DNA of 41,691 nucleotides. Source: Bacteroidales bacterium (lineage in GTDB: Bacteria > Bacteroidota > Bacteroidia > Bacteroidales > UBA932). Below are positions 141 to 41,493 of the stretch, piece after piece; the stretch's first letter is position 1; each line of letters opens with the position of its first letter. The stretch is taken from contig JAFPGC010000038.1 of assembly GCA_017423025.1 (NCBI GenBank), positions 1-41,691 on the forward strand. Reading direction: 5' to 3'. The notes under the pieces are model-generated. The model made no database searches, had not been told where the DNA came from, and saw only the letters and a list, made by a program, of their open reading frames with translations. The translations under genes and the position numbers were made by a program.

Positions 141-2018
141 TTACAGATTTTTCATCATCGCCGTAAGGAGTTCAAGAAGGGACTCCTCGTCCATACCGCA
201 GGAGGCACGCTGGGCCTTCTGGGTGTCCTGGGTCATATAGCGGTCCGGGATGCCGACTCCTTTTATGACGGGGGCATCGGCCCTGTCGGCAAAATACTCG
301 CTCACCGCGCCGAACAAGCCTCCCTTGAGGGCTCCGTCCTCCAGGGTGAGGATGGCCTTGAAGCCCGCAGCTTCCTCCAGGATGGCGGAATCCAGCGGCT
401 TGAGGAAGCGCATATCAAATACAGCGGGGGCTTTTCCGAAATCGGCCTTTAACTTGAGCGCCGCAGACAGGGCGCGGTTCACCACCGGTCCCAGTCCCAG
501 GACGGCGACTCCCGTCCCTTCCAGAAGCTTTTCGCCCTGGCCGACGGGCAGCGCCTTGTACGGAGCCTCCCGCCAGGGTTCCCCTTCGCCTATGCCGCGG
601 GGATAGCGGATGATAAGGGGACCGTCCTTGAGCGACAGGCCCGTATACATAAGCTGTTTAAGCTCGGCCTCATTACGCGGGGCCGATATGGCGATGCCCG
701 GAATGCTGCGGTAGGCCGCCAGATCGTAGCAGCCGTGGTGCGTAGGGCCGTCCTCCCCTACCAGGCCCGCCCGGTCGAAGCAAAGCACCACCGGCAGGTT
801 CTGCAAGGCCACATCGTGGATGATGCAGTCATAGGCCCTCTGGGAGAAGGAAGAATAAATATTGCAATAAGGCTTCATGCCGGCGGCGGCCAGGCCGGCC
901 GAGAAGGTAACGGCATGTTCCTCTTCAATGCCTACGTCGAAGAAACGCTCCGGCACGGCTTTCTGCAGCAGGTTCATGCCGCAGCCCGTAGCCATGGCGG
1001 GAGTAACCCCCACCACCTTGGAATCCATTTGGGCCAGTTCCACCAGCACCTCTCCAAAAACGTCCTGGTAGCGGTCGGCCGTGTAGTTCGTCTTCACGCG
1101 CTCGCCCGTGGCGGGGTCAAAGCGCCCCGGGGCATGCCAGACCGTAGGATCGGCCTCGGCGGGAGCGAAGCCCGCCCCCTTGCGGGTGTGGATGTGCAGC
1201 AAGCGCGGTCCCTTCAACTTGCGAAGCCGCTCCAGCGTATAGAGGAGCTGCTCCAGGTCGTTTCCGTCTATGGGGCCGAAATAGCGGAAGCCCAGCGACT
1301 CGAACAGGGCGCCGCCGGTGCCGCGCACCAGGTTGGACTTGGCATCGATCACTTTCTTCTGCACCCATTCACGGGCCTTGCCGGCTCCCATCGAATTCCA
1401 GACCTTGTTCTTGATCTGGTTGTAGACGGGGTGGGTGGTCACATTGAGCAGGTACTCGTGAAGGCCGCCGATGTTGTTGTCGATGGAAATGTTGTTGTCG
1501 TTGAGAATGACGAGGATATCGGCCTTGGACGATCCGGCGTTGTTCAGGCCTTCCCAGGCCAGGCCTCCGGTGAGGGCGCCGTCTCCGATGATGGCCACCG
1601 TACGATCCCCCGTTCCCTGCAGGCGCGCCGCCTCGGCAAAACCCAGTGCGGCCGATATGGACGTAGAAGCATGTCCGGCGCCAAATGCGTCGTACGGACT
1701 CTCGTCCCGCTTGGGGAAGCCGCTGATGCCCTCCAGCGTACGGTTTTTCCGGAACGCCTCGCGCCGGCCCGTCAGGATTTTATGGGCATACGCCTGGTGC
1801 CCCACGTCAAACACCAGTTTGTCCGCGGGCGTATTATATATATAATGTAGGGCGACGATGAGCTCCACAGCCCCCAGGCTGGATCCCACATGGCCGGGAT
1901 TTACGGCGCAACACTCCAAAATGTATGAACGGATTTCTGCGCACAGCGTCTCCAGCTGGGTGCGCGAAAGTTTCCGAAGGTCTTCGGGAGAGTTGATTTG
2001 GTTCAGTACCTCGTACAT
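141..2018 (-). CDS. dxs: 1-deoxy-D-xylulose-5-phosphate synthase
   Basis: Condenses pyruvate and glyceraldehyde-3-phosphate to DXP, the first step of the MEP isoprenoid pathway and a precursor for thiamine and pyridoxal phosphate; cytosolic, TPP-dependent. The 625-residue protein aligns along its whole length with the family: N-terminal VGHQAYAHKILTGRR, the GDGALTGG...NDN thiamine diphosphate/Mg site, GHASTSIS, the DVGIEEEHAVTFSAGLA transketolase segment with its catalytic Glu, DRAGLVGEDGPTHHG, and a C-terminal transketolase domain. I start at the ATG at 2018. A TTG three codons earlier lies inside the TATCTTTG promoter element and would not be transcribed. The upstream neighbour (MFS) has the same orientation, but the promoter suggests a separate transcript. 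A polyprenyl synthase from the same pathway lies at 18.5-19.5 kb. Confidence 0.97.
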   Translation of the reverse strand: MYEVLNQINSPEDLRKLSRTQLETLCAEIRSYILECCAVNPGHVGSSLGAVELIVALHYIYNTPADKLVFDVGHQAYAHKILTGRREAFRKNRTLEGISGFPKRDESPYDAFGAGHASTSISAALGFAEAARLQGTGDRTVAIIGDGALTGGLAWEGLNNAGSSKADILVILNDNNISIDNNIGGLHEYLLNVTTHPVYNQIKNKVWNSMGAGKAREWVQKKVIDAKSNLVRGTGGALFESLGFRYFGPIDGNDLEQLLYTLERLRKLKGPRLLHIHTRKGAGFAPAEADPTVWHAPGRFDPATGERVKTNYTADRYQDVFGEVLVELAQMDSKVVGVTPAMATGCGMNLLQKAVPERFFDVGIEEEHAVTFSAGLAAAGMKPYCNIYSSFSQRAYDCIIHDVALQNLPVVLCFDRAGLVGEDGPTHHGCYDLAAYRSIPGIAISAPRNEAELKQLMYTGLSLKDGPLIIRYPRGIGEGEPWREAPYKALPVGQGEKLLEGTGVAVLGLGPVVNRALSAALKLKADFGKAPAVFDMRFLKPLDSAILEEAAGFKAILTLEDGALKGGLFGAVSEYFADRADAPVIKGVGIPDRYMTQDTQKAQRASCGMDEESLLELLTAMMKNL

Positions 2019-2024
2019 AGTGTA

Positions 2025-2032
2025 CAAAGATA
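2025..2032 (-). promoter_or_regulatory. -7 element of dxs; near-leaderless start
   Basis: TATCTTTG on the minus strand ends only six bases before the dxs ATG. Transcription in Bacteroidota starts a few bases after this element, so the mRNA would begin at or very near the start codon. No clear TTTG -33 box is seen at the expected distance. Confidence 0.6.
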
Positions 2033-2056
2033 AGAATAATTTCCGAAAGCGCAGAC

Positions 2057-5052: not shown

Positions 5053-5082
5053 ATTGAATAGTAATTATTTCCTTAGGAACCG

Positions 5083-5090: not shown

Positions 5091-5181
5091 GTGAAAAAAA
5101 TCCAATACTGGCCGATTTTTTGCTATAAAAAGCCAACCGTGCGGCAACTTTCTCCGTCTAATTCAAAAAGATGAAAAAAGT

Positions 5182-19552: not shown

Positions 19553-19577
19553 TGTGATACACAAACCTCTTCCCGAT

Positions 19578-26245: not shown

Positions 26246-26248
26246 ACT

Positions 26249-27178
26249 ATGAAACCCAACGTTGCCCTGGCCCTGGCCAGCGGCGGTCCCCGTGGTTTTG
26301 CCTACATCGGCGCCATTGAGGAATTGCAAGCCAGGGGTTACAAGATTACTTCCGTGGCCGGAGCCAGTGCCGGCTCGCTGGTGGGCGGCATTTTCGCAGC
26401 CGGCGGACTGGAGCCCTTCAAGAAATGGCTCTTCTCTCTGGATCCCGTGAAGGTGATGACCCTCATGGACGTATCCGTGAGCAAGAATTACCTGGTCAAG
26501 GGAGAGAAAGTCATCAACGAAATCAAGTCTTTTGTTCCGGATGTGAACATCGAGGATTTGCCCATTCCGTTCACGGCCATCGCCACGGATCTGTATACCG
26601 GCGAGGAAGTGATTTTCCGGGAGGGACCTCTGTTCAATGCCATCCGGGCGTCTATCTCCATCCCGTCCATGTTCAAGCCCGTGGTGTGGAAAGGACGTAC
26701 GCTGGTGGACGGCGGAATGGTGAACACCTTCCCCCTGAACCGCGTACAGCGAACCCCCGGGGACATCCTGGTGGGCTTCAACGTGAACCAGATTGATGCG
26801 GCCGAGATTCAGGGCTTCCTGGACAGCCGGGCCGCCATCGCCCAGGAGCGCGAGAGCGAACACACCCTGCTGGGCCGTATCCAGGCAGGCATCCAGGCGG
26901 GCTTGCAGCAGCGGCAACTGGAAGCATCGGCCAACAACAGCTGGATTCCCGTGGGCGCCGATGACAACTTCGCCTCCATCCTCCAGCGAAGCTTCGGCAT
27001 CATGAACTGCAGCCTGGCCCGCATAGGCATCGAACTTACCCCGCCGGACGTGCTGGCCAGCCTGCCTTACGACTCCTACCACGGCGTGTACGGCTATTCC
27101 CACGCCGAAGAAATTGCCACCCTGGGCCGCAGGCTCATGGCCGATGCCCTGGACCAATACGAGAAGAAGAATGCCTAA
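26249..27178 (+). CDS. Patatin-like phospholipase
   Basis: A 309-residue protein of the patatin/RssA group with the full catalytic set: glycine-rich oxyanion loop SGGPRG near the N-terminus, nucleophile elbow GASAG with Ser40, and the catalytic Asp154 in VDGGMVNT. No signal peptide is visible, so it is probably cytoplasmic or peripheral on the inner membrane. Such enzymes hydrolyse acyl ester bonds of phospholipids or other lipids. Its place inside a glycosidase operon, three bases after GH29 and overlapping the regulator by eight, is odd; it may deacylate lipid-linked or acetylated glycans, but nothing in the sequence shows this. Confidence 0.88.
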   Translation: MKPNVALALASGGPRGFAYIGAIEELQARGYKITSVAGASAGSLVGGIFAAGGLEPFKKWLFSLDPVKVMTLMDVSVSKNYLVKGEKVINEIKSFVPDVNIEDLPIPFTAIATDLYTGEEVIFREGPLFNAIRASISIPSMFKPVVWKGRTLVDGGMVNTFPLNRVQRTPGDILVGFNVNQIDAAEIQGFLDSRAAIAQERESEHTLLGRIQAGIQAGLQQRQLEASANNSWIPVGADDNFASILQRSFGIMNCSLARIGIELTPPDVLASLPYDSYHGVYGYSHAEEIATLGRRLMADALDQYEKKNA

Positions 27179-27647
27179 GGTAGTCACCATCAAGGATATC
27201 GCCCGGGAAGCGGGGGTCTCGCCCTCGCTGGTCTCCTTCGTGTTCAATGGAAAGAACCGTGTAGGAGATCAGACCCGACAGCGGATCCTGGAGGTGGCCG
27301 ATCGCCTGGGATACCGCACCGGGCAGGCCGCCCGCGTGCCCTGGCCCGCCGCCCGGCTCATCGGCGTCATCACGCCGTCGCTGGACGCCGCCCCCTTACA
27401 GGCGCTGTCCGACTGCGCCTATCGCCGGGGGTACACCGTGCTTTTTGCATCGGCCCAAAACGATCCCGTGCGCTTTTGCCACTTGGTGCGGGCCTTGGCC
27501 CAGAAAGGCGTGGAAGGCTTCGTGGCCTCCCCCCTGCCCGGAGAGGAAGAAGATTGCCTGACCGCCCTCAACGTAACCGAAAAACCTTATGTGCCTCTGG
27601 GTGACAACCCGGACCAAACCATACAAGAATTATTACAACAGATATGA
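27171..27647 (+). CDS. Half-length LacI-family regulator
   Basis: The 158-residue protein begins with a complete LacI DNA-binding region: helix-turn-helix [24 protein letters not shown], then [20 protein letters not shown] including the hinge. It continues into the first subdomain of the sugar-binding module ([31 protein letters not shown]) and stops soon after the equivalent of the first crossover, at [20 protein letters not shown]. Normal LacI proteins have about 330-350 residues, so half the effector domain is missing. It is not a simple frameshift, because the next bases encode the GH130 N-terminus, whose ATG overlaps this stop codon by four bases. It may bind DNA without sensing sugar, or be a relic kept for coupling. 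ATG at 27171 chosen because MPKVVTIKD matches family starts. Confidence 0.82.
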
Positions 27648-28642
27648 CAAAACTTACTATTTCCGGAAAAGCCCTCCCGGGCATGCCGTGGGAAGACCGT
27701 CCGGCCGGTTGCAACGCCCCTCTGTGGCGCTACAGTGCCAATCCCGTGATCCCCCGGAACCTGCTTCCGGACTCCAACAGCATCTTCAACAGCGCCGTGG
27801 TCCCGTTCCGGGACGGTTTTGCAGGCGTGTTCCGCTGCGACGACACCAACCGCCGCATGACCCTCCACGCCGGCTTCTCCAAGGACGGTATGCACTGGGA
27901 CATCAATCCCAACACCATCCAGTTTGAAGGGGCCGATCCCGAAGTGGGTCAGTGGGTCTATGGGTATGACCCCCGCGTGGCCTTCATCGAAGACCGCTAC
28001 TGGGTTACCTGGTGCAACGGCTACCATGGCCCGACCATCGGCATAGCCTGGACCCAGGACTTCAAGACTTTCCACCAGGTAGAGAACGCCTTCCTGCCCT
28101 ATAACCGCAACGGCGTGCTTTTCCCGCGCAAGATTGGCGGCAAATTCGCCATGCTTTCCCGTCCCTCCGACACCGGACACACCGCTTTCGGCGACATCTT
28201 CTACAGCGAGTCGCCGGACATGGAATTCTGGGGACACCACCGCCACGTGATGGCTCCCGCCCCGTTTGAGGTGAGTGCCTGGCAGTGCATGAAGATTGGT
28301 GCCGGCCCCGTGCCCATCGAGACCTCGGAAGGCTGGCTGCTCTTCCACCACGGCGTGCTGCACAGCTGCAACGGTTACGTGTACAGCTTCGGCAGCGCCC
28401 TGCTGGATCTGGACCAGCCCTGGAAGGTGCTGGCCCGCAGCGGTCCCTACCTCATTTCCCCTCAGATGCCGTACGAATGCATGGGAGATGTGCCCAACGT
28501 GTGCTTCCCCTGCGCAGCCCTGCACGATCCGGAGACCGGCCGCATAGCCGTTTACTACGGCTGCGCCGACACCGTCACCGGGCTCGCCTTCGGCTACATC
28601 CCGGAGATCATTGAGTTTACCAAACGCACGAGCATAGTGTAA
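27644..28642 (+). CDS. GH130 beta-1,4-mannosyl phosphorylase
   Basis: A 332-residue five-bladed beta-propeller enzyme of GH130. It splits beta-mannosides with inorganic phosphate, giving alpha-mannose-1-phosphate. No signal peptide, so it acts in the cytoplasm. The start region ([20 protein letters not shown]), [20 protein letters not shown], the general-acid Asp109 in YGYDPRV, and [10 protein letters not shown] / [14 protein letters not shown] follow the GH130_2-type pattern that, as I recall, includes the Bacteroides enzyme acting on Man-beta-1,4-GlcNAc from N-glycans and related mannooligosaccharide phosphorylases. With GH92, GH125, GH2 and GH29 nearby, the N-glycan core is the likeliest substrate; beta-mannan is the alternative. 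Confidence 0.88.
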
Positions 28643-28703
28643 ACCGCTCACGGGATGCCTCGAAAGCGTGGGCGTAAGTGTTTAACTATTAGTAAATTGA
28701 GTG

Positions 28704-28719
28704 TTTACCCCTAGGTAAA
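28704..28719 (+). promoter_or_regulatory. Short hairpin just before the GH92 start codon
   Basis: TTTACC and GGTAAA form a six-base-pair stem with loop CCTA; the ATG follows at 28721. Base-pairing here would lie in the ribosome-binding zone. The core TTTACCCCTAGG recurs in both arms of the larger inverted repeat downstream of the same gene. The 78-base gap 28643-28720 contains no convincing TAnnTTTG element. Confidence 0.45.
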
Positions 28720-28720
28720 A

Positions 28721-30946
28721 ATGACTATGGGAAAATCGTTAAGGTTTTGGCTATCAAGCATATGCCTCCACGCCGTTCTTCTTGTTCACGCCCAGACCGA
28801 GTGGGTGAATCCCTTCATCGGCACTTCCAATTTTGGCGCCTGTAACCCCGGAGCCGTTACTCCCAACGGAATGATGAGCGTGAGCCCCTTCAACGTGATG
28901 GGCTCGCAGCTTAACACCTGGGACAAGGACAGTCGCTGGTGGAGCACGCCGTATGTGGCAGAGAACAGTTTCTTCACCGGTTTCACGCACGTGAACCTCT
29001 CCGGTGTGGGCTGTCCGGAACTGGGCTCTCTCCTTACCATGCCCACCACCGGTCCGCTGCAGGTGGATTACCATATCTATGGCAGTGAGTACCGCAACGA
29101 GGTAGCGCATCCCGGTTACTACAGCGTAGAGCTTCTGAGTGGCATCCAGGCCGAAGCCACCGCCACCACCCGCACCTCCCTGGAACGTTACACTTTCCCG
29201 GGCGGGGAGGGCAACATCCTGCTGAACCTGGGCGAAGGCCTCACCAATGAGAGCGGCGCCACGGTGCGCAAAGTGAGCGACACGGAGATTGAGGGCGTGA
29301 AGCTCATGGGCACCTTCTGCTACAACCGCAACGCAGTGTTCCCGTTGTACTTTGTGATGCGCGTGAGCAAGGCTCCTGCGGCGGCAGGCTACTGGAAGAA
29401 GCAACGCCCCATGACGGCCGAAGCCGCCTGGGATGCCGATGCCGGCAAGTATAAGATTTACGCCCGGTACACCCGCGAAATGAGCGGTGACGACATTGGC
29501 TACTGGTTCCATTATGAGGGACTGAAACCCGGCGAGCAGGTACAGGTGCAGATGGGCGTATCGTTCGTGAGCATAGCGAATGCCCGCGAAAACTTGAACG
29601 CCGAGCAGCAGGGCTTTGATTTTGCGGCCGTGCAGAAGCAGGCCGAAGACGCCTGGAATCAGCATCTGAGCCGCATTCGCATTGACGGCGGCACGCCGGA
29701 CCAGCGCACCATCTTCTACACCGCACTGTACCACGCGCTTATCCATCCCAACGTGCTCAACGACGTCAACGGCGAGTATCCGCTGATGGAGAGCGAGGGC
29801 ATCGGACGCGTGGAACCCGGCCATACCCGCTATACGGTTTACTCCCTTTGGGACACCTACCGCAACCTGCACCAGCTCATGACCCTCCTGTGGCCCGAGA
29901 AGCAGACAGACATGGTCCGTTCCATGATTGACCAGTACCGCGAGTGGGGCTGGATGCCCAAGTGGGAACTCTACGGCCGCGAAACCTGGACCATGGAAGG
30001 AGACCCCGCCATCTGCGTCATCGCCGACACCTGGCTTCGCGGTCTCCAGGACTTTGACATTGAGACGGCCTACGAGGCTTTCCTGAAATCGGCCGATACC
30101 CCTGGCGCGCAGAATCTCATGCGTCCGGACAACGATCCGTACGTGCAACTGGGCTACATTCCGCTCAACTACTTCAACGCAGATTTCTCCGGCGACAACT
30201 CCGTCTCCCATGCCCTGGAGTATTACGTGGCCGATTATGCGCTCTCCAAACTGGCCGCCAACCTGGGCCGCAAGGAAGACGCGCAGCGCTTCTACCAGCG
30301 TTCCCTGGGCTATAAGGAATATTGGAGCAAGGCCGATAAATGCCTGCGTCCCCGCCTGAAAGACGGCAGTTTCCTCACTCCGTTCAATCCCGAAGACGGG
30401 GCCGATTTCTCCAACGCCCCGGGCTTCCACGAAGGCAGCGCCTGGAACTACACCTTCGCGGTGCCGCACGACGTGTTGGGCTACGCCAAGCTCCAGGGCG
30501 GTACCAAGGCCTTTGTGAACAACCTCCAGCACGTGTTTGACGAAGGTCTCTACGATCCCGCCAACGAGCCGGACATCATCTATGCTTATCTTTTCAGCCG
30601 CTTCAAAGGGTATGAACCCCGTACCTGGGTCGCTGTGGAGAAGATTCTGTCCACCCACTACAAGAACGCCCCGGACGGCATCCCGGGCAATGACGATACC
30701 GGCACCATGAGTGCCTGGGCCGTCTTCTCCATGCTGGGCATTTATCCCGACTGCCCCGGCGAGCCGGACTTCACCCTCACGCGTCCCACCTTCCCCAAGG
30801 CGGTGGTCACGCTCCCCGGCGGTAAGGAGCTCACCATTACAAAAGCATCGGCCCAAGCCAAAAAGGCTCAGGTCGATGGTAAAAACAAAGGCTACCGGGT
30901 CTCGCACCAGGATTTGATGGAGACCCGCAACATAGCGTGGAGGTAA
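28721..30946 (+). CDS. GH92 alpha-mannosidase (1)
   Basis: A 741-residue exo-alpha-mannosidase of the calcium-dependent GH92 family, cleaving alpha-1,2-, 1,3- or 1,6-mannosides from high-mannose glycans. A signal peptide (ends LLVHA) directs export. The N-terminal beta-sandwich begins VNPFIGTSNFGACNPGAVTPNGMMSVSPFN. The (alpha/alpha)6 catalytic domain has YSLWDTYRNLHQLMTLLWPE, MPKWELYGRETWTMEGD and GIPGNDDTGTMSAW, whose acidic pair (Asp658/Asp659) sits where family members place the catalytic base. It is the last gene of the plus-strand glycan operon, 78 bases after GH130, followed by a strong hairpin. It is distant in sequence from the second GH92 at 32.5-34.7 kb, so linkage preference probably differs. 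Confidence 0.93.
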   Translation: MTMGKSLRFWLSSICLHAVLLVHAQTEWVNPFIGTSNFGACNPGAVTPNGMMSVSPFNVMGSQLNTWDKDSRWWSTPYVAENSFFTGFTHVNLSGVGCPELGSLLTMPTTGPLQVDYHIYGSEYRNEVAHPGYYSVELLSGIQAEATATTRTSLERYTFPGGEGNILLNLGEGLTNESGATVRKVSDTEIEGVKLMGTFCYNRNAVFPLYFVMRVSKAPAAAGYWKKQRPMTAEAAWDADAGKYKIYARYTREMSGDDIGYWFHYEGLKPGEQVQVQMGVSFVSIANARENLNAEQQGFDFAAVQKQAEDAWNQHLSRIRIDGGTPDQRTIFYTALYHALIHPNVLNDVNGEYPLMESEGIGRVEPGHTRYTVYSLWDTYRNLHQLMTLLWPEKQTDMVRSMIDQYREWGWMPKWELYGRETWTMEGDPAICVIADTWLRGLQDFDIETAYEAFLKSADTPGAQNLMRPDNDPYVQLGYIPLNYFNADFSGDNSVSHALEYYVADYALSKLAANLGRKEDAQRFYQRSLGYKEYWSKADKCLRPRLKDGSFLTPFNPEDGADFSNAPGFHEGSAWNYTFAVPHDVLGYAKLQGGTKAFVNNLQHVFDEGLYDPANEPDIIYAYLFSRFKGYEPRTWVAVEKILSTHYKNAPDGIPGNDDTGTMSAWAVFSMLGIYPDCPGEPDFTLTRPTFPKAVVTLPGGKELTITKASAQAKKAQVDGKNKGYRVSHQDLMETRNIAWR

Positions 30947-30970
30947 GTAGCTAACTCATCGTGTTTTAAC

Positions 30971-31006
30971 AATTTACCCCTAGGAGATTTCGCCTAGGGG
31001 TAAATT
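30971..31006. terminator. Bidirectional hairpin between convergent glycan operons
   Basis: AATTTACCCCTAGG (30971-30984) and its exact complement (30993-31006) form a perfect 14-bp stem with an eight-base loop, placed between two converging stop codons (30946 and 31044). Position fits a shared terminator. The U-tracts are weak on both sides, so a protein-binding site is the alternative. Confidence 0.6.
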
Positions 31007-31043
31007 CGTAAGTGGCTGTGGTTTAATGCTTTCGGCCCACGGT

Positions 31044-32444
31044 TTACTTGATAGAATTCAGCACGGGAAGTTTGCCGTCGCTGACCAGCTTGAGGACCAG
31101 TTCGCCGAAGAGGGTGTTCTGCCAGGCGAACCAGGGGCGGGTGAAGTTGGAGGCATCGTCCTTGTGGAAACTCTCGTGGATGAAGCCCAGACCGGCGTCG
31201 GTGTTCAGAAGCTGCTCCATGCAGGCCTTGATCTCGGCATCATCGGTGGCGGTAAAGGCCTTCATCATGATGCTCATGGGCCAGATGGCTTCCAGGCCGA
31301 TGTGAGGACCGCCGATACCTTCGCCAGCCTTACCCTTCCAGAAATAAGGGTTGGAGGTGCTCCAGACAAACTTACGGGTATTCTGGTAGATGGGGTCGGA
31401 GGCCATGGAAGGAATCAGATAGGCCAGGGACAGCAGGGACGGAACATTGGCGTCGTCCATGAGATAGGAATTGCCGAAGCCGTCCACCTCGAAGGCATAG
31501 ATGTCGCCAAACTCGGGATGATGCACAATGGCATACTTCTTCAGGGCACCTTCCACCTCATTGGCCAGGGCGGTGGCACGGGCGGCCAGGCCGGCCTCTT
31601 TGTTCACTTCGGAGAGAACCTCCGCCATCTGGCGCAGGATGCTCACGGCGAAGAAATTGGAGGGTACCAGGAAATCAAACTGGGTGGCGTCGTCGGAAGG
31701 ACGGAAAGAGGAGGCGATAAGGCCGACGGGCTTCACGGGATGTCCCCTGCCCACGCGGGCCTTGGTATCCAGTTGACGGTCGGTCTTGCGAAGGAAGTAA
31801 TACGGGCCGTCACCCTCCTTGCGCTGCTGCACCGTAAAGGTTTCGAGGATATTGTTGACCGTCTTGAGCCACAGCTCGTCAAAGATGGAGCTGTCACCGG
31901 TCACCTTCCAATAATGATAGGCCAGGCGTACGGGATAGCAGTGCGAGTCAATCTCCCACTTGCGCTCCCACACATTGGGATCCTGCGGCTTGCCGGTCTC
32001 GTCAGGGTCTCCGGCGTCGCCGGTAGGGCCCTGGTTGAAGGCATTGGCATATGGGTCAATGTTGATGAGCGTGAACTGCTGCCGGATAACGCCGGCCAGC
32101 ATGGTCTGCAGATGGGCGTCGTTTCCGCAAAGCTCTACATACGGCCACACCTGGGCGCCGGAATCGCGCAGCCACATGGCGTGGATGTCGCCGGTGTACA
32201 CAAAGGTGAGACCGGTTTCCTCATCAAAATGAACGGTGGTGTCCAGCGTATTGGGGAAGCAGTTCTGGAACATCCAGCGCAGCTTGGGATTGGTAAGCTG
32301 CGGAGCCACTTCGGCAATCTTGGCCTCTACGGCCTGGGACACAAACAGCCGGTCCTGGGGAGCCGGACGCTGGTCCGGATACTTCTGGGCGCAGGCGCTC
32401 AGGGTAAGTAAGCTCAGGATTAAGGTAAAAGCTATCTTCTTCAT
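31044..32444 (-). CDS. GH125 exo-alpha-1,6-mannosidase, lipoprotein
   Basis: A 466-residue lipoprotein (lipobox LSAC after a signal helix) of GH125, metal-independent enzymes that remove alpha-1,6-linked mannose, typically from N-glycan or yeast mannan backbones. Recognisable blocks are FVYTGDIHAMWLRDSGAQVWPYV near the start, VWERKWEIDSHCYPVRLAYHYWK in the middle, PVGLIASSFRPSDDATQFDFLVPSNFFAV, and LGFIHESFHKDDASNFTRPWFAWQNTLFGEL near the end. The open frame extends upstream to 32555, but the ATG at 32444 begins the signal peptide. It follows the second GH92 by 22 bases and ends the minus-strand operon. Confidence 0.93.
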   Translation of the reverse strand: MKKIAFTLILSLLTLSACAQKYPDQRPAPQDRLFVSQAVEAKIAEVAPQLTNPKLRWMFQNCFPNTLDTTVHFDEETGLTFVYTGDIHAMWLRDSGAQVWPYVELCGNDAHLQTMLAGVIRQQFTLINIDPYANAFNQGPTGDAGDPDETGKPQDPNVWERKWEIDSHCYPVRLAYHYWKVTGDSSIFDELWLKTVNNILETFTVQQRKEGDGPYYFLRKTDRQLDTKARVGRGHPVKPVGLIASSFRPSDDATQFDFLVPSNFFAVSILRQMAEVLSEVNKEAGLAARATALANEVEGALKKYAIVHHPEFGDIYAFEVDGFGNSYLMDDANVPSLLSLAYLIPSMASDPIYQNTRKFVWSTSNPYFWKGKAGEGIGGPHIGLEAIWPMSIMMKAFTATDDAEIKACMEQLLNTDAGLGFIHESFHKDDASNFTRPWFAWQNTLFGELVLKLVSDGKLPVLNSIK

Positions 32445-32466
32445 ATCAGAATGAGGAGGTTTCAAG

Positions 32467-34704
32467 TTATTTGGAGAACGAATAAGGCTTGTCTTCATCG
32501 GCCACGCCGCGCTTGTAGTTGGGCTGGGCGGACATCTTGAAGTGGAGCTTGGCACCCTTCTGCAAATCGGCCTGCTTCAGGAAGTTGTGCGACCAGGGCT
32601 TGCCGTCCAGGGTGAGGTCGTTCACGTAGAAGTTATCGGCCGAATTGTCCGGGGCCTCGATAACCACGTCTCCACCATCCAGGTGCAGGGTGGCTTTCTT
32701 GAACAGGGGCGTTCCCAAGGCATATTCTCCGCTGGCAGGGCACACCGGGTAGAAGCCCAGGGCGCTGAAGACATACCAGGCGCTGGTCTGGCCGTTGTCC
32801 TCGTCTCCGCAGTAGGCATCGGCCCAAGGGGTGTAGAATTTCTCCATCACCTCACGGACGCGGGCCTGCGTCTTCCAGGGCTGACGGCTGTAGTCGTACA
32901 GATACAGCATATGCTGGATGGGCTGGTTGCCATGGGCGTAGTTGCCCATACCCATCACCGTCATCTCGATAATCTCGTGGATGGGGAAGCCGTAATAGCT
33001 GTCGTCATACTTGGGCGGCATCGCAAACACGGTATCCATCTGGGCATTGAAAGCATCCTCACCACCCATAAGGCCGATAAGCCCCTCAATGTCGTGGAAC
33101 ACACTCCAGGTATAGTGCAGCGAATTGCCTTCGGTGAAGTCTCCTCCCCATTTGAGGGGGCTGAAGGGACGGCGGAAGGTGCCATCGGCCTGGCGGCCGT
33201 TCATGAGCTTGTACTCGGCATCGAACACATTGCGATAGTTGAGGGCAGCCTTCTTGTAAGGCTCCAACTGCTCCTCGTCAATGTTCAGAGCTTTGCCCAG
33301 CGTATAGATGCACCAGTCGTCGTAGGCGTATTCCAGCGTACGGGCGGCATTCTCCTTGATGCCTACGTCGCAAGGCACATAACCCAGCTCATCGTAGTAT
33401 TCCCAGCCCAGGCGGCCCGTGGAACTCACGGTAGGATGCACGGCATGGGCGTCGTGAGTCACGGCCTCCCAGAGTTTGCCGATGTCATAATCCCGGACGC
33501 CGGACAGGTAAGCATCGGCCACCACGGAGGCGCTGTTGTTGCCCACCATGCAGGGCCGATGTCCGGGCGAAGCCCACTCCGGCAGGAAGCCGCTCTCCAG
33601 ATAATCGTTCACCAGGCCTTCCTGAACTTGGGAAGACACCTTGGGGAACAGAAGGTTCATGAGCGGGAACAGGCTGCGGAAGGTGTCCCAGAAACCGGTA
33701 TCCGTGTAGAAATGACCTTCCATCACCTCGCCGGTATGGGGGCTGTAATGCTGCAGCACACCATACATGCCAATCTCGGCCAGGTCGCGCGGGAACAGCA
33801 GGCTGCGGTACAGGCAGGTATAGAACGTACGCAGATGGTCTATGTTGTCGTCCTCCACCTCAATCTTGCCCAGGGCCTGGTTCCAGGCGGTCTGGGAGTA
33901 CATCATCACCTCTTCGAAGGGGTCGTTTACCTCTCCCAGATTGAGCTTGGCCTGGTCCATGCTGATGAAGGAGGAAGCCACCTTCACATGAACAACTTGC
34001 CCCTTGGTGGTGGGGAAAGAGACCATACCCAGGTTCTCGGGCGTATTCTCCGCGGTGAAGGGAGTATCGCTCTGGATAATGATGTAATTGCAGAAGTTGG
34101 GAGCTACGCCACCGTGATTGTTCACGGCCCAGGCGCAGATGGTGTGGTCGTCCACCACCTCCACCTTGCCGCCTTCATAGGCGTCTACCACCAGGTACGA
34201 CTTCTCGCACTCCGGATAAGTAAAGCGGAACCAGGCAGCGTGGGAGGCCGGAACCAGTTCGGTGGTCACGTCGTGGTCGGCCAGATAGACACTGTAATAA
34301 TAAGGCTTGGCCACTTCCGTCTTGTGAGAGAACCAGCTGGCCCGCTGGTCCTGGTCATAATACGGACCGGTGGTCACCGGCATCAGGCTAAACGCGCCGT
34401 AGTCGTTGATCCAGGGAGACGGCTGATGCGTTTGCTTGAAACCGCGGATGTGCGTAGCGTCGTAACGGTACGTCCATCCATCCCCATTTTTACCGGTCTG
34501 GGGCGTCCAGAAATGGGCGCCCCAGGGTACGGCTATAGCGGGATAAGTATTACCGGTGGAAAGGTTGAAGGTGGACAGGGTGCCCCCCATGGGGTTCACG
34601 TATTCTGCCCAGTCACTCATGGTCTTGTGGGTTCCCACGGGTTTTTCGGCGCACGCTGTTGCCAACAGCGCCAGTGCCGCCAAGGTTATCAGTTTGTGTC
34701 GCAT
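32467..34704 (-). CDS. GH92 alpha-mannosidase (2), lipoprotein
   Basis: A 745-residue GH92 enzyme with lipobox ATAC (LALLATACAEK), hence lipid-anchored, unlike the first GH92. It has the N-terminal sandwich (YVNPMGGTLSTFNLSTGNTYPAIAVP), FWDTFRSLFPLMNLLFP, the segment AHGNQPIQHMLYLY, and the catalytic-base motif GDEDNGQTSAWYVFSALGFYPVCP with Asp634 and Asp636. These are full family hallmarks, closer to the classic GH92 pattern than gene 1. It starts 11 bases after the wzz-like gene, with no room for a separate promoter in the gap, and is followed by GH125, making a polysaccharide-export plus mannosidase transcription unit. Confidence 0.94.
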   Translation of the reverse strand: MRHKLITLAALALLATACAEKPVGTHKTMSDWAEYVNPMGGTLSTFNLSTGNTYPAIAVPWGAHFWTPQTGKNGDGWTYRYDATHIRGFKQTHQPSPWINDYGAFSLMPVTTGPYYDQDQRASWFSHKTEVAKPYYYSVYLADHDVTTELVPASHAAWFRFTYPECEKSYLVVDAYEGGKVEVVDDHTICAWAVNNHGGVAPNFCNYIIIQSDTPFTAENTPENLGMVSFPTTKGQVVHVKVASSFISMDQAKLNLGEVNDPFEEVMMYSQTAWNQALGKIEVEDDNIDHLRTFYTCLYRSLLFPRDLAEIGMYGVLQHYSPHTGEVMEGHFYTDTGFWDTFRSLFPLMNLLFPKVSSQVQEGLVNDYLESGFLPEWASPGHRPCMVGNNSASVVADAYLSGVRDYDIGKLWEAVTHDAHAVHPTVSSTGRLGWEYYDELGYVPCDVGIKENAARTLEYAYDDWCIYTLGKALNIDEEQLEPYKKAALNYRNVFDAEYKLMNGRQADGTFRRPFSPLKWGGDFTEGNSLHYTWSVFHDIEGLIGLMGGEDAFNAQMDTVFAMPPKYDDSYYGFPIHEIIEMTVMGMGNYAHGNQPIQHMLYLYDYSRQPWKTQARVREVMEKFYTPWADAYCGDEDNGQTSAWYVFSALGFYPVCPASGEYALGTPLFKKATLHLDGGDVVIEAPDNSADNFYVNDLTLDGKPWSHNFLKQADLQKGAKLHFKMSAQPNYKRGVADEDKPYSFSK

Positions 34705-34715
34705 AAGTATACGGC

Positions 34716-35822
34716 TTATTGCTCTTCTTCCATTTTTTCTTGGACGTCAGAGCGCATCTTCTTCAAGAAATCGGCACCGAAGCCATACCAGGCAACGGCC
34801 AGGAAACCACCCAAAAAGCCCCAGATGAGCACGCGCTTGGCGCGGCTGTTCATGGGCCGCTGGGGCAGAGTAGCAGGCTGAACCACGGCGTAGACCGGTT
34901 TCTCTTCCTGGATCTTGGCCCGCGCCAACTCTCTCTGCTGGGCCATCTGGGAATAGATCTGGTTGGCCAGGCTGGCCTCTTCGCGCAGACGGTCTTTCTC
35001 GGCCGTGGCACTCTGAAGGATGACGCTGCGGTCAAAGTCCACGGAACGGGCATAAGCGGCCTGCGCCCTAACCAGTTCTTCGTGGGCCTCATCGGCCAGA
35101 GCCACATAGTAGTTGTAGTCGTCCGTAGCCTTCTTGGTGCGGTAATTGGACACATAGACCTGCAGACGCGTGCAAACCGTATCGGCCAGCTGCTTGACCA
35201 TCATGCGGTCGTCCATGACAACATTGATGGTGGTCACGCCCGTCTTTTTGTCTACCTCGGCCGTGATGCACTCGGACAGCTTCTTGACCACAAGTGCCTG
35301 CTTGCGGGTAAGTTCGGTGGGATCGTCCACGCCGGTGTAGGGCTTTTCGTCCTTCTTGGGCTTGTAGTTAGGCTTGTCCTCGCCACTCAGGTGCTTGTAC
35401 ACGGTGGTGTGCATGGGTTTTACACCTTCTTCGGCCTGCTTGTCACTCACATAGGAGCTTAGCGGAACATCCAGCAGGGCGGCCAGGAAAGGCGTGCTGT
35501 GGCTGATTTCCGGGAAGAGGGTGATGTTCATGGCATCGGTTCCGCTTCCCAGGGTAGCAGCTCCCCCCAGCCCCAGCATGTTGGTGAGGCTGGAAAGGCT
35601 GGAGGAAGAACGGCTCTGGAGTTCGGGAGCCAGGGTCATGGTCACACCATACTGGCGCTTCATCAGAAGGGCCGATACTATACCCAGGCAGCCAAAGATA
35701 AAGCCGATGAGGACAATCTGCTTCCAATGCTTGAGCAGTTTGGTCACAATGCCCATCCAGTCAATCTCCAACTCATCGTCATAAGATTCCTGATAGGGAG
35801 GGTTGTTCAGATTCTCTTCCAT
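34716..35822 (-). CDS. Wzz-family chain-length determinant / polysaccharide co-polymerase
   Basis: A 368-residue inner-membrane protein. Its topology is a cytoplasmic N-terminus, a membrane helix at about residues 35-57 (IVLIGFIFGCLGIVSALLM), a long periplasmic part with coiled-coil-like helices (around 230-300), and a C-terminal helix (VLIWGFLGGFLAVAWYGFG) preceded by a Pro-rich PATLPQRPMNSRAKR segment. This is the Wzz/PCP organisation that sets chain length and couples to the outer-membrane exporter. It has no C-terminal tyrosine-kinase domain (not a full Wzc). The last residues are acidic (EKMEEEQ). Seven bases separate it from the upstream wza-like gene. No glycosyltransferase, flippase or polymerase gene is in the window. 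Confidence 0.87.
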   Translation of the reverse strand: MEENLNNPPYQESYDDELEIDWMGIVTKLLKHWKQIVLIGFIFGCLGIVSALLMKRQYGVTMTLAPELQSRSSSSLSSLTNMLGLGGAATLGSGTDAMNITLFPEISHSTPFLAALLDVPLSSYVSDKQAEEGVKPMHTTVYKHLSGEDKPNYKPKKDEKPYTGVDDPTELTRKQALVVKKLSECITAEVDKKTGVTTINVVMDDRMMVKQLADTVCTRLQVYVSNYRTKKATDDYNYYVALADEAHEELVRAQAAYARSVDFDRSVILQSATAEKDRLREEASLANQIYSQMAQQRELARAKIQEEKPVYAVVQPATLPQRPMNSRAKRVLIWGFLGGFLAVAWYGFGADFLKKMRSDVQEKMEEEQ

Positions 35823-35829
35823 GGGCTAA

Positions 35830-38247
35830 TTATTTATTTTTGCTTAAGGTATTCACAAGGGTTACGACAGCCACACCCAACGTACCCATAGAAGCGGCGG
35901 CAGAGCTGATGGCAATCAGACCGGTGTAGTCGGACTTGCCTTGCTTCTTCTCCTTATCCGGTACAAAGATTTCCGAACCGGGTTCAATCTTGTCCCCTGC
36001 ACGAATCTTCTTGGCGCGTCCGCCCATGGACACCAAATATTTCTTGGACCTACGGGCATTCTGGGAATAACCGCCGGCGGCATCGATGTAATCGGCCACC
36101 GTCATCTTGGCATTCCACGTTACGGCAGTAGGATACATCACGGCACCAAAGACACGCACGACATTGGACTGCACGGGAATCTCCAGACGGTCATTTTCTC
36201 TCAGAACCACATCGGAAGGACCTCCGGGATTGCTCAAGGCGTCCTCCAGATTAAGGGAAATACTATAGTGACGGGTTCCGGTCTTGAGCGTATTGCGTTC
36301 CATGTTAAGAGCAGCGGTACTGTCAATCTGTTTCACCAGGAGCTGACCCAGCTCACGGGCCTGGGTAATTTCCTCAGCAGTAGCTTCGCGTACCAGACGG
36401 GCACCCTTGATATAGGCATAGTCCGTAAGGCCGCCGGCTTTCTCAATCAGGTCGGAGACGCGTTCTTCACGGCTGGTAATGGTGTACTGTCCGGGGAAGT
36501 TCACTTCACCGCTCACCACGAAGTGACGCTGTGCATTGTAGGAAGGACTCTGGTGAACCATCACCTCATCGTAAGGTTCCAGCACAAAGCCACGCTCTCC
36601 GTCGGCCACCAGGCCGTCCTTGAGGGAGAAGGAATACAATTCACCGATGTCACTGGTGGCCACCACGCCATCGGCGTCTTTCTTGCGGCGGGTGACGTCC
36701 ACACGGGAAGTGGAAGCACCGTCCTGCAGACCGCCAGCCATGATGATGAAGTCTTCAATGGTAGTATTCTCGGCAAAGGGATAGACGCCGGGCTTCTTCA
36801 CCATACCGCTGATGTTCATGGTACCACGGTCCTTGAGGTCTTCCTTGCTGGCGATAAACAACTCGTCGTTGTTCATGAGCACGAAGTCGGGCTTGGTACC
36901 GGCTATAATCTCGGTAAGGTTCTGGGAGATTACCTCCTGGGTCTTGTCCTGGTGCTCACGATAGATAACTACGCGGTCCGTGAAGGCTTCCGGCAACAGG
37001 CCACCGGCCTTCTGCACCAGACCCTTCAGGGTGCGGGCATCGTCCAGCTCGTAAGTGCCCGGGAAGAAGACGGCGCCGATAATGGACGTACGGTTCTTAT
37101 AACGGGCCTGGCGTACACCCACCTCGATGCGGTCGGCATTCTGAAGACGGAACGTGCCGAATTCGGTTTCCGGAACGCTGCGGACCTCCAGGACCGTTCC
37201 TTCCTGATGGAAGACGGTCACCTGCTTCTCATTGGCATCCATGGTAAATCCGCCGGCATATTCCAGCACATCGGCCACGGTTTCCCCTTGCTTGATTTCA
37301 AAGAACATCGGGCGCTTGACAGCACCTTCCAGCTGAACGATATCCTTATACGTGGAAACCAGGATTACGTCTCCTTCTTCCAGACGGATGTCAGAAGTCA
37401 TGGTCCCCTTCATGATGAATTCGTAAACGTCGATGGTAGCGACCACCTTGTCTCCCCTGATCACGCGGATGTTACGCAGGGTACCGGGCTCCTTGACGCC
37501 ACCGGCACGGTAGAGAGCATGGAAGGTTGTGGCAAAGCCGGAAAGCACATAGGTGCCGGGGCTGGTCACTTCGCCCATAATATTGATCTGGATGGAACGG
37601 ATCTGGCCCAAGCTAAGGATCATCTCGGTACCGGAATGGCCCAGACCACCATAGATGGAAGACAGGCGTTTTTTCAGATAGGCATTGGCCTCATCGATGG
37701 TTTTTCCGCTCAGGTAAAGCGGGCCCAGCACATCTACGTTGATATTTCCCTCGGGAGAGATGGTCTGACGGAGGGTGGCCTGGTTGTGGCCGAAGATATC
37801 GATGATAATCTCATCTCCGGGGCCCAGTCGATAGTTGCGGGGCGTCGCCATGTTCTCACTGGGGGCAAAGTTCATGGCCCGGTTCCGGAATATATCGCGA
37901 CCGAAGACCTTCATTTCTCCGGCAGCGACAAGCTCGCTGGAAGCCGAAACTTCGTCACCCACGGCATTCACCGAGTGCTGACGGCTCTGATCCTGGATTA
38001 CGCTCTTGGCCTCGGCAGCGCCCTGGCGCTGTTGATACAAGGCGTATACCCTCTGGGCCTGAGCCCGGTTAACACCGCGAAGGCTCAATTCGGTCACCAT
38101 TTCGTCCCGGCTCTTACCGGAAGCCATGCCCTGCTGGACATATTCGAGGACCTGTTCATCGGTCATGGTACTCTGTGCCCAGGCCATGCCGGCTACCAGA
38201 AAAAGGCCAGCGCAAATCGCTGTTAAACTTCTTTTCACTGCAGTCAT
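35830..38247 (-). CDS. Wza-like polysaccharide export protein with multiple SLBB domains
   Basis: An 805-residue exported protein (signal peptide ending GMAWA). After a helical region (residues 28-75) and a Gln-rich linker comes the polysaccharide-export domain (YRLGPGDEIIIDIFGHNQATLRQTISPEGNINVDVLGPLYLSGKTIDEANAYL), then a series of SLBB beta-grasp repeats, recognisable by GEVTSPGTYVLSGFATTFHALYRAGG, GAVFFPGTYELDDARTLKGLVQKAGG, GMVKKPGVYPFAENTTIEDFIIMAGG and GEVNFPGQYTITSREERVSDLIEKAGG, plus a last one near residue 720. A C-terminal hydrophobic segment (GLIAISSAAASMGTLGVAVVTLV) may cross the outer membrane. It forms the export channel partner of the Wzz-like protein and heads the wza-wzz-GH92-GH125 unit. 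Confidence 0.9.
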   Translation of the reverse strand: MTAVKRSLTAICAGLFLVAGMAWAQSTMTDEQVLEYVQQGMASGKSRDEMVTELSLRGVNRAQAQRVYALYQQRQGAAEAKSVIQDQSRQHSVNAVGDEVSASSELVAAGEMKVFGRDIFRNRAMNFAPSENMATPRNYRLGPGDEIIIDIFGHNQATLRQTISPEGNINVDVLGPLYLSGKTIDEANAYLKKRLSSIYGGLGHSGTEMILSLGQIRSIQINIMGEVTSPGTYVLSGFATTFHALYRAGGVKEPGTLRNIRVIRGDKVVATIDVYEFIMKGTMTSDIRLEEGDVILVSTYKDIVQLEGAVKRPMFFEIKQGETVADVLEYAGGFTMDANEKQVTVFHQEGTVLEVRSVPETEFGTFRLQNADRIEVGVRQARYKNRTSIIGAVFFPGTYELDDARTLKGLVQKAGGLLPEAFTDRVVIYREHQDKTQEVISQNLTEIIAGTKPDFVLMNNDELFIASKEDLKDRGTMNISGMVKKPGVYPFAENTTIEDFIIMAGGLQDGASTSRVDVTRRKKDADGVVATSDIGELYSFSLKDGLVADGERGFVLEPYDEVMVHQSPSYNAQRHFVVSGEVNFPGQYTITSREERVSDLIEKAGGLTDYAYIKGARLVREATAEEITQARELGQLLVKQIDSTAALNMERNTLKTGTRHYSISLNLEDALSNPGGPSDVVLRENDRLEIPVQSNVVRVFGAVMYPTAVTWNAKMTVADYIDAAGGYSQNARRSKKYLVSMGGRAKKIRAGDKIEPGSEIFVPDKEKKQGKSDYTGLIAISSAAASMGTLGVAVVTLVNTLSKNK

Positions 38248-38809: not shown

Positions 38810-38831
38810 CACTCAAATCAGAATCAAACGC

Positions 38832-39803: not shown

Positions 39804-39818
39804 TCGGAAATTTATTGC

Positions 39819-39826: not shown

Positions 39827-39842
39827 CAACCCCAAAGAGGAT

Positions 39843-39916
39843 GGTTCCGTAGCTCAGCTGGATAGAGCAACAGCCTTCTAAGCTGTGGGTCAAGGGTTCG
39901 AATCCCTTCGGAATCA
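39843..39916 (+). tRNA. tRNA-Arg (anticodon TCT)
   Basis: Full cloverleaf: acceptor GGTTCCG paired with CGGAATC (one G:U), D-arm GCTC/GAGC, anticodon stem CAGC/GCTG with loop CTTCTAA and anticodon TCT, T-loop TTCGAAT, discriminator A. CCA is not encoded. It reads AGA/AGG codons. Confidence 0.96.
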
Positions 39917-39922
39917 CGAAAG

Positions 39923-40093
39923 GCAAGGACGCCACGGTCGAAGACTGTGGCGTCTGGCGTTTAAAAAGGGCACCAAGCTTGCTTGAGTGCCCTTTTTAAA
40001 TGACAGATGACAGGCCCCCGAAGGGGGGCTGGCGTCCTTGCTATGCTCGTGATGAGCCCCCCGCAGGGGAAGGGAAGTGACCGCCGCAGGCGG
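39923..40093. other. Highly structured intergenic region
   Basis: The gap 39917-40116 holds no gene but several perfect inverted repeats. GCAAGGACGCCA (39923-39934) pairs with its complement at 40030-40041 and would close a multibranched fold. Inside it, 39928-39939 can instead pair with 39943-39954 (GACGCCAC... stem, GAA loop), the terminator hairpin sits at 39960-40000, and GCCCCC (40014-40019) pairs with GGGGGC (40024-40029). Beyond it come CCCC-gca-GGGG near 40060 and CCGCC-gca-GGCGG (40081-40093). Two pairings compete for the same bases at 39928-39934. Confidence 0.6.
39960..40000. terminator. Bidirectional intrinsic terminator
   Basis: TTTAAAAAGGGCAC (39960-39973) and its exact complement (39987-40000) form a 14-bp stem whose A/T end gives a U-tract in either direction. 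It would end the tRNA-Arg transcript and the convergent dcuB-like transcript. Confidence 0.8.
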
Positions 40094-40116
40094 GCAAATC
40101 CCAAAGGAATCCCACT

Positions 40117-41493
40117 TTACTGAACAAATCCCGCAAAATATCCCGGGAACAGCACGCAGGTCATCAGATATCCCACCACAGTGGCCACAAAGACGCTAAT
40201 CAGGCCCGGCATCATGAAACTGTGGTTCAGAAGGTATTTGCCGATAACCGTAGTACCGCTTCGGTCAAAGTTCACCGTAGCAATATCGGAAGGATAATTG
40301 GGGATGAAGAAATATCCGTATACGCTGGGGAACACGCCCAGCAGCACCGGACCGGCAATGCCCAGTTCATAGGCCAGGGGCAGCATGGCCACCACCACGG
40401 CGCCCTGGGAATTGATGAGCACCGAAACCAGGAAGAACACCACGGCAATGCTCCAGGGTGCACGGGTCACCAGGTCGGTCAGCATCACCTTCATCTCGTC
40501 CATGTAGTTGCCGAAGTAAGTATCGGCCAGCCAGGCGATGCCGTAAATAGCCACAACGGCCACCATACCGGATTGCCAGACCGCCCCGCCGACGGCTTTC
40601 TTGGGAGCCGCCTTGCAGAACATAATGTTACAGGCCGCTGCCATGAGCATGATAATCTGGATGCAGATATTCATCTTGGGCAGGTTGATGGCCTTGGCCA
40701 ATGTGTCTCCGCTAGAAACATGAATCATCTGGCAGAAGGCAAATCCCACGATAACCACCAGGGCGCCCAGGAAAATAAATACCGAAGCCTTGGCTTCCTT
40801 GGAGATGACCTTGTCCAGAGTGGTGGCGGAGCTTCCGTACATATAATTATACATTTCCGGATCGGCCTTCCTGGCCAGGAACTCGGTATCCTGGTCCAAA
40901 TCCTTACCACGCTTATAGGAAGCGGCGGCGGCGCACATAAGACCTATCAGGCATGCCGGAATGGTGACCATAAGCACCTGAGGAATGCTGACCATGTAAC
41001 CGTTGGCATTGGAAATGGTTACAAAGGCTACCACTGCGGCAGCAATGGGCGAGCAGGTAATACCCACCTGGGATGCCACGGAAGACACGCCACAGGGACG
41101 CTCCGGACGGATATTCTTCTTAAGGGCAATGTCGCAGATAATGGGCATGATGGTGTAGACCACATGACCTGTACCCACCAGCACAGTAAGGAAAAAAGTT
41201 ACCAGAGGTCCCAGGAAGGTGATGTGATCCGGATGTTTGCGAAGCATCCTCTCTGCGACCTGAATCATCCAGTCCATACCTCCGGACGCCTGCAGGGTTC
41301 CTGCACAGGTGACGGCTGCAATGATAATATAGATAACGTCCGTGGGGGGCGTACCAGGTTTGAGGCCGAAGCCAAATACCAGAATAGCCAGGCCGATGCC
41401 GGAAATGGCACCCAGGGCCAGAGAGCCATAACGGGAACCCACGTACAACGCTGCCAGAACAATAAGCAGCTCAACAATCATGGTGAAGGTCAT
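40117..41493 (-). CDS. Anaerobic C4-dicarboxylate transporter, DcuA/DcuB family
   Basis: A 458-residue polytopic inner-membrane carrier exchanging fumarate, succinate, malate or aspartate during anaerobic growth. It matches DcuB over its length: IVELLIVLAALYVGSRYGSLALG, PPTDVIYIIIAAVTCAGTLQASGGMDWMIQVAERMLRKHPDHITFLGP, VGTGHVVYTIMPIICDIALKKNIRPERPCGVSSVASQVGITCSPIA. The strongly conserved GTGHVVYT and IRPERP segments are intact. The frame is open to 41547, but the ATG at 41493 gives the family N-terminus and lies downstream of a promoter element. Succinate export fits a fermentative Bacteroidales. It stands alone, with a group II intron directly upstream. Confidence 0.92.
   Translation of the reverse strand: MTFTMIVELLIVLAALYVGSRYGSLALGAISGIGLAILVFGFGLKPGTPPTDVIYIIIAAVTCAGTLQASGGMDWMIQVAERMLRKHPDHITFLGPLVTFFLTVLVGTGHVVYTIMPIICDIALKKNIRPERPCGVSSVASQVGITCSPIAAAVVAFVTISNANGYMVSIPQVLMVTIPACLIGLMCAAAASYKRGKDLDQDTEFLARKADPEMYNYMYGSSATTLDKVISKEAKASVFIFLGALVVIVGFAFCQMIHVSSGDTLAKAINLPKMNICIQIIMLMAAACNIMFCKAAPKKAVGGAVWQSGMVAVVAIYGIAWLADTYFGNYMDEMKVMLTDLVTRAPWSIAVVFFLVSVLINSQGAVVVAMLPLAYELGIAGPVLLGVFPSVYGYFFIPNYPSDIATVNFDRSGTTVIGKYLLNHSFMMPGLISVFVATVVGYLMTCVLFPGYFAGFVQ

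Follow-up and report, generated by a model that had tools for sequence, protein, structure and literature searches.

The window, that is, the whole stretch of DNA analysed, comprised 41,691 bases (positions 1 to 41,691 of contig JAFPGC010000038.1, assembly GCA_017423025.1, from a Bacteroidales bacterium), and the element in question was the heptamer ATCGGCC, counted on either strand. ATCGGCC occurred 88 times between 276 and 41397 (46 copies on the forward and 42 on the reverse strand; mean spacing one copy per 474 bases), compared with a mean of 9.06 and a maximum of 19 in 100 dinucleotide shuffles, and was the top heptamer of the window under an order-2 model (88 vs. 12.1 expected). The one-letter variant GTCGGCC/GGCCGAC occurred 13 times, 6.8-fold more rarely than the word, and TTCGGCC 31 times. 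Two overlapping copies formed the palindrome ATCGGCCGAT at 30088 to 30097. An earlier note on this DNA had given about 86 copies, a balanced orientation, an approximately 7-fold rarity of the GTCGGCC variant and the palindromic pair, and all of these were reproduced.

Genes were called with a simple in-house open reading frame (ORF) picker in place of a standard gene finder. Within the called genes of the window 44 copies were read as xxG-GCC-GAT, 19 as xxA-TCG-GCC, 16 as ATC-GGC-Cxx and 4 across the remaining three phases, in agreement with the Ala-Asp, Ser-Ala and Ile-Gly settings previously reported. These 83 coding copies compared with 15.2 after synonymous shuffling (maximum 27 in 200 shuffles) and with 18.0 after shuffling that preserved protein, codons and dinucleotides (maximum 27 in 60). 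Only 5 of the 88 copies lay outside accepted gene calls, 4 of them inside unaccepted ORFs of at least 100 amino acids; the sole clearly intergenic copy (5110 to 5116, reverse strand) lay between an ORF ending at 5061 and an ORF starting at 5245, and the earlier count of at least two intergenic sites was not borne out within the window. The ribonuclease R gene (13948 to 16074, forward strand), by which relatives were found and the tree was built, carried copies at 14490, 15484, 15865 and 16014. The region 19554 to 38247 contained glycan-degradation genes (GH3, a LacZ-type beta-galactosidase and two GH92) next to a Wzz-like gene and a gene for polysaccharide export whose product has SLBB domains.

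The excess extended over the whole genome of the window (2,388,874 bases in 88 contigs, 87% complete), with 4,066 copies of ATCGGCC (1,980 + 2,086) vs. 318 of the reversed control word (151 + 167), or 1.7 copies per kb, approximately one copy per 590 bases. A genome sample of 336 kb of readable sequence, made up of the window and further stretches, held 630 words (1.87 per kb). Called genes of the sample contained 574 words, compared with 108 after within-gene synonymous codon shuffling (standard deviation 9.4, maximum 131 in 200) and 117 under a strict null (standard deviation 9.9, maximum 135 in 60), which kept proteins and codon counts and shifted dinucleotide counts by at most 34. The excess over the strict null was 4.9-fold. 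Enrichment was seen in each of the six settings that orientation and codon phase allow (e.g., 9 vs. 3.1, 140 vs. 5.7 and 295 vs. 53.6), and the word contained 19% of TCG codons, 17% of GAT codons and 12% of the rare CGA codons. Outside called genes (41 kb of the sample) there were 56 copies vs. 4.4 expected by base composition, to which missed genes may contribute. The signal was one of the word and not of a single codon pair, as had been proposed; a codon and dinucleotide artefact was ruled out by the two nulls, and neither in the sample nor in the window did the ratio of observed to expected words approach 1. In the same sample (window and L001 to L020), GATC was depleted in genes (709 vs. 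1,086 under the strict null), as were CCCCC runs (359 vs. 711).

Directly before the word only C (51%) or T (27%) was preferred, and a search for a longer motif over 15 letters on each side found nothing further beyond codon periodicity. Twelve of the 21 one-letter neighbours stood at or below expectation, with an observed/expected ratio of 5.3 for the word itself. Ratios were lowest for ATCGGTC (0.26), ATCGGAC and ATCGGGC (both 0.41) and ATCAGCC (0.53), and highest for TTCGGCC (2.04), ATAGGCC (1.69), AACGGCC (1.65) and ATCGGCA (1.44). Against eight selected neighbours the word had log odds of 1.5 to 3.0; to take these as a measure of how strong selection or drive is presupposes mutation balance. 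Strand use was balanced genome-wide (p = 0.10; contig orientation is arbitrary) and homogeneous over 19 pieces (chi2 14.4), with no sign of a strand-oriented word, so that strand use was not like that of Chi or of FtsK-orienting polar sequences (KOPS), as the earlier note had held. With respect to the coding strand, copies were enriched in either orientation (251 and 323 copies), which places the signal at the DNA and not the RNA level; an RNA-level signal was rejected accordingly.

The genome of the window belongs to a large genus of Bacteroidales that is apparently Cryptobacteroides-like. The 80 nearest named ribonuclease R loci came from uncultured Bacteroidales or Bacteroidia, many of them from the rumen or ruminant gut by title, and included one Candidatus Cryptobacteroides and one Rikenellaceae. 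By eye, from a table with rounded genome sizes, 40 of 400 same-genus genomes carried at least 1.0 copy per kb and approximately 77 of the 400 at least 0.45 per kb; most others were near the control. In the ribonuclease R tree, ATCGGCC-rich loci (rich or word-rich hereafter) fell into one part with word-poor loci interspersed; the tree was built by a quick method with only the Shimodaira-Hasegawa-like approximate likelihood ratio test (SH-aLRT) as support and left 21 of 78 inner branches open. As to whether the word alters proteins, for which no case is made, Ala-Asp was more frequent in rich than in poor loci (6.27 vs. 5.18 per 1,000 residues), and the other peptides of the word were near equal or inconsistent. 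Compared with word-poor relatives, residue conservation at word sites was lower in two phases (0.454 vs. 0.607 and 0.348 vs. 0.474) and higher in the third (0.804 vs. 0.477).

Other lineages carried other words (figures are observed/expected under the strict null). The leading words were ATATTCC (81/23) and ATATTCA (63/17) in G424, CATTGCC (87/30) and ATTGCCC (58/18) in G426, and ATTCGCC (76/30), the weakest of the dialect words, in G428, together with ATTCGTC (57/28), ATTCGAC (46/21) and ATTCTCC (53/25). TTCGGCC (175/43) stood alongside ATCGGCC (86/19) in G429, and CATCGGC (132/40), ATCGGCC (84/23) and ATCGGCA (78/20) were found in G430. Named loci pooled by clade concurred for ATATTCC (135/42, eight loci), CATTGCC (48/12.8, two loci) and ATCGGCC (149/23, five loci), and whole-genome counts of ATATTCC were 2,007 and 1,755 in two clade members and 152 to 494 in 13 other genomes. 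No dominant heptamer was seen in G433, G434, G436, G278 and G334 (best z 3.8 to 7.7); ATCGGCC was mildly in excess in G436, one of the word-poor genomes of the gene comparison below (70/37). Eight of 24 genome sets were left out of one word survey for too little readable sequence, and 7 of 20 other-family pieces (<7 kb) out of another. The excess of ATCGGCC is a DNA-level, genome-wide and lineage-restricted one, with different words in other lineages.

Two further word signals were recorded. Pieces of G053 (L199 and L215 to L218), of another family in the same order, showed an excess of ATCGGCA (46/16) and TATCGGCA (23/4.5) under the strict null, which may represent a related word outside the genus. 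The near-palindrome TCCGGAA/TTCCGGA was over-represented in many word-rich and word-poor lineages (L101 to L105, L126, L099, L088 and the G247 pieces), with 68/19.6 in L102 to L105 plus L111, 34/7.2 in L099 plus L126 and 28/9.8 in L132, L135, L139 and L140; it is a second, less specific word signal.

Four of the five dialect words, ATCGGCC, ATATTCC, ATTGCCC and ATTCGCC, read as AT, three varying letters and CC, and TTCGGCC departs from this frame. Among the 256 frames of the form XYnnnUV, only ATnnnCC and its reverse complement held a top-3 heptamer in all four sets, compared with 14 frames that did so in one set and 240 in none; the frame was noticed ahead of the counting, so this count is post hoc. 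When the 136 frames were ranked in each locus, ATnnnCC came first in 28 of the 41 that belong to the ATCGGCC clade or neighbour it, and in 5 of the 11 from which the other dialects had been identified. Elsewhere it led in a single one of 26 further named loci and in none of the 13 genus pieces or the 11 other-family pieces, by which a universal, genus-wide ATnnnCC habit was ruled out. The ranking left out 2 of the 80 named loci (too little coding sequence) and the pieces with less than 10 kb readable, namely 7 of the 20 from the genus and 9 of the 20 from other families. ATACGCC, which fits the frame and may be a further dialect, showed a weak excess (18/4.5 in L122, L130 and L134; 24/8.7 in pieces of G433).

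Five close loci together had 84 ATCGGCC sites, in many cases one site counted in several of the loci; the sister locus L101, of the TTCGGCC species (G429), had ATCGGCC at 29 of these and TTCGGCC at 16. Conversely, at the TTCGGCC sites of L101 (35 sites, 119 comparisons) the five loci had TTCGGCC and TGCGGCC 17 times each and ATCGGCC 16 times. These site identities indicate that a switch between ATCGGCC and TTCGGCC can occur in place.

Synonymous conservation was assessed by comparing the codon pairs of the word with the same pairs beside other letters, in comparisons that share sites and are non-independent. In rich pairs of at least 85% identity, TCG-GCC was kept more often after A (0.894, n = 426) than after C (0.506), G (0.797) or T (0.622); in word-poor loci it was kept at 0.111 after A (n = 45) and at 0 to 0.174 after the other letters. 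ATC-GGC was kept at 0.909 before C vs. 0.555 to 0.749 before other letters in rich pairs, and at 0.675 vs. 0.418 to 0.662 in word-poor loci. GCC-GAT had no advantage after G (0.736) over T (0.752), C (0.644) and A (0.667, n = 9). In the ATATTCC clade, GAA-TAT was kept after G at 0.829 (n = 298), after C at 0.373, after T at 0.372 and after A at 0.895 (n = 19); in the ATCGGCC clade the corresponding values were 0.548 (G), 0.546 (T) and 0.265 (C). Also in the ATATTCC clade, ATA-TTC was kept before A (0.836) and C (0.815) more than before G (0.229) and T (0.400), GGA-ATA was kept before T at 0.732 vs. 0.481 to 0.679, and TAT-TCC had no advantage after A (0.479 vs. 0.352 to 0.620).

Candidate reader genes were compared in 30 genomes: 10 ATCGGCC-rich, 8 with other dialects or their kin, and 12 word-poor, the last picked partly for high completeness. 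ComEC was found in 26 of the 30 genomes, including 9 of the 10 rich ones. The pilus and type II secretion ATPase PF00437 passed the cut-off in 1 of 30, the word-poor G334:C22 (402 bits), which had no ATCGGCC excess, and in none of the 10 rich genomes; weak matches (E ≤ 0.001) occurred in 27 of 30 genomes, 26 of these under the cut-off. A type IV pilus ATPase as part of the reading machinery therefore fits badly, the machine would have to differ from the Neisseria and Haemophilus type, and a classical pilus-based reader is unlikely.

Methyltransferases passing the cut-off in the ten rich genomes were C5 in 2, PF01555 in 1, PF02384 in 1, D12 in 2 and Eco57I in 4 (three strong). None of the five families passed it in 5 of the 10 rich genomes (genomes 76 to 97% complete), that of the window among them, and none was common to the ten, compared with at least one family in 11 of 12 word-poor and 7 of 8 other-dialect genomes. 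Genus-wide, PF02384 occurred in 10 of 40 rich vs. 152 of 360 other genomes (Fisher p = 0.041), a weak difference that kinship or completeness, both uncontrolled, could explain. The suggestion of a methylation signal found no backing in these families.

The explanation preferred here, possible though short of probable and drawn by analogy with known uptake words, is that recognition at the DNA level, linked to uptake or recombination and giving preference to own DNA, drives the accumulation of ATCGGCC. A sequence-specific factor would read ATCGGCC on double-stranded DNA, and DNA bearing the word would preferentially be kept or passed on, so that the word would multiply through the genome. The factor would most likely act in natural transformation or recombination, as a receptor or as a processing enzyme; uptake or recombination would then favour fragments with the word, and the word would spread by drive, as do the DNA uptake sequences (DUS) of Neisseriaceae and the uptake signal sequences (USS) of Pasteurellaceae. 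The dialects would track changes of the reader, in which the contacts to AT and CC were held and the preference at the three middle letters shifted. Density, strand balance and lineage dialects uphold the proposal of the earlier note that the word resembles an uptake sequence; the lack of a pilus ATPase over the cut-off in rich genomes does not. The explanation also draws on the uncommon codons imposed by the word, on its in-place switch with TTCGGCC between sister lineages, on the retention of TCG-GCC inside it in rich but not in poor loci and on ComEC in 9 of the 10 rich genomes. According to the portions of the source articles available, transformation of P. gingivalis requires ComEA and ComEC, with a pilus-like conjugation structure reportedly uninvolved (PMC11532111), and that of Riemerella anatipestifer depends on four functionally uncharacterised proteins besides ComEC, DprA, ComF and RecA (PMC8459023). 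Such non-pilus transformation in Bacteroidota, the preference for own DNA known from the phylum (PMC7965970) and the DUS-like dialects favour an uptake- or recombination-linked drive.

Several results weigh against this explanation. A word deficit was looked for in genes of unusual codon usage and none was seen over five codon-usage classes (observed/expected 4.1 to 6.1); such genes were equally word-laden, and hence gave no sign of word-poor newcomers. Spacing in the genome sample was random and not even (coefficient of variation 1.03), with 5.2% of spacings below 30 bases vs. 5.7% expected. DUS and USS copies tend to come in pairs that form inverted repeats close to the ends of genes; the 630 sample copies, which included 14 ATCGGCCGAT palindromes, did not form such inverted pairs. 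The word is shorter than DUS and USS, and ComEC, being present in most word-poor genomes as well, was not specific to rich ones. Clean evidence of conservation came from one of the three codon phases (TCG-GCC): GCC-GAT gave none, and that from ATC-GGC is weak, because the pair was better kept before C in word-poor loci too.

A wider proposal, regarded as rather doubtful, is that these are self-DNA words of Bacteroidota which operate with neither type IV pili nor DNA methylation. A putative reader with fixed AT and CC contacts and a quickly changing preference at the three letters in between would give every lineage a word of its own; this word would fill the genome by drive and keep apart the gene pools of related gut species.

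Among the rivals, binding of an abundant chromosome-packing or self-marking protein, with sites kept by selection on the chromosome and not by transfer, is consistent with the random spacing and with the presence of the word across codon-usage classes, as befits a general binding site. Known sites of packing and segregation are, however, much lower in number or far less specific, selection could hardly be maintained on thousands of individual copies, and lineages with no dominant word thrive; this explanation is unlikely.

Highly iterated palindromes (HIPs) suggest another route, in which a methyltransferase of the word's specificity and mismatch repair would push near-matches toward the word, as proposed for HIP1. 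The density and genome-wide spread of ATCGGCC resemble those of HIPs, which also have alternate words in relatives (as far as the available text of PMC4390886 goes), and the depletion of some neighbours, ATCGGTC above all, is what conversion to the word would produce. Eco57I-type enzymes, which often have asymmetric sites, gave strong matches in 3 of the 10 rich genomes. Yet ATCGGCC is not palindromic, PF02384 was less frequent in rich genomes, and of the five families none passed the cut-off in 5 of the 10 rich genomes and none was shared by all ten, which leaves a HIP-type explanation unsupported there and altogether improbable.

A Chi-like role, in which a helicase-nuclease would halt degradation and begin recombination at the word and dialects would follow its reader domain, accords with the length of Chi words (approximately 5 to 8 letters, some of them seven) and with their differences between groups; Chi shielding of incoming fragments would also spread a word by drive. 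The role is likewise given little credence, in view of the balanced strand counts, the homogeneity of the 19 pieces and a density of about one copy per 590 bases, higher than is known for Chi words. An origin in the usual biases of a GC-rich genome (codon pairs, dinucleotides or amino acids) agrees with the 108 to 117 of 574 genic copies that the nulls account for and with milder excesses of unrelated words in many genomes, but is very improbable, since a 4.9-fold excess remained over the strictest null, all six phases were enriched and the excess was missing from many same-genus genomes.

Dialects within one very large gut genus, with many word-free sister species, would allow a study of how such words originate, change letters and are lost, and a search for their reader in the apparent absence of pili and of a shared methyltransferase. 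Should the word gate DNA exchange, it would predict which abundant commensals of the gut can exchange genes, and would inform how DNA is designed for transforming commensals of the group. To our knowledge, genome-filling word dialects with a known function, namely uptake, are confined to Neisseriaceae and Pasteurellaceae. By title and start of abstract, no description of the present words was found among the literature matches listed, a search with subscription papers and preprints mostly outside its scope.

Words of such density are known as uptake words (DUS and USS) and as HIPs. Chi words are similar in length and in differing between groups; here strand bias was missing and density was higher. 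Cyanobacterial HIP1 and alternate HIPs, in the available part of their description (Elhai 2015, PMC4390886), are like it in density (approximately one per kb or below), in the alternate words of their relatives and in having no known function, but are palindromes with cognate methyltransferases, unlike ATCGGCC, which is no palindrome and for which no common methyltransferase family was found. Riemerella columbina, another member of Bacteroidota, favours its own DNA in equal-amount competition and was searched for a repeated word; in the text available (Huang et al. 2021, PMC7965970) the top words were A/T-rich runs judged against base composition only, none of them tied to uptake.

The USS of Pasteurellaceae are also genome-wide words tied to a preference for self-DNA and are of similar density; they differ in having a core of 9 letters flanked by AT-rich sequence and in relying on pilus-based machinery, whereas the word here had no extended flank. 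R. columbina, for its part, belongs to another class of Bacteroidota. DUS are read by the type IV pilin ComP; they are 10- to 12-mers, compared with a heptamer here, in another phylum, with no type IV pilus ATPase over the cut-off and uptake as a proposed function. In the portion of the Neisseriaceae study available (Frye et al. 2013, PMC3630211), DUS are short asymmetric words in thousands of copies, with one dialect per lineage and single-letter switches between relatives, as here, and their eight dialects have CTG and a later A in common. To this shared CTG and final A would correspond the AT and CC of four of the five words, and it is these Neisseriaceae DUS that the dialect pattern, by analogy, most resembles.

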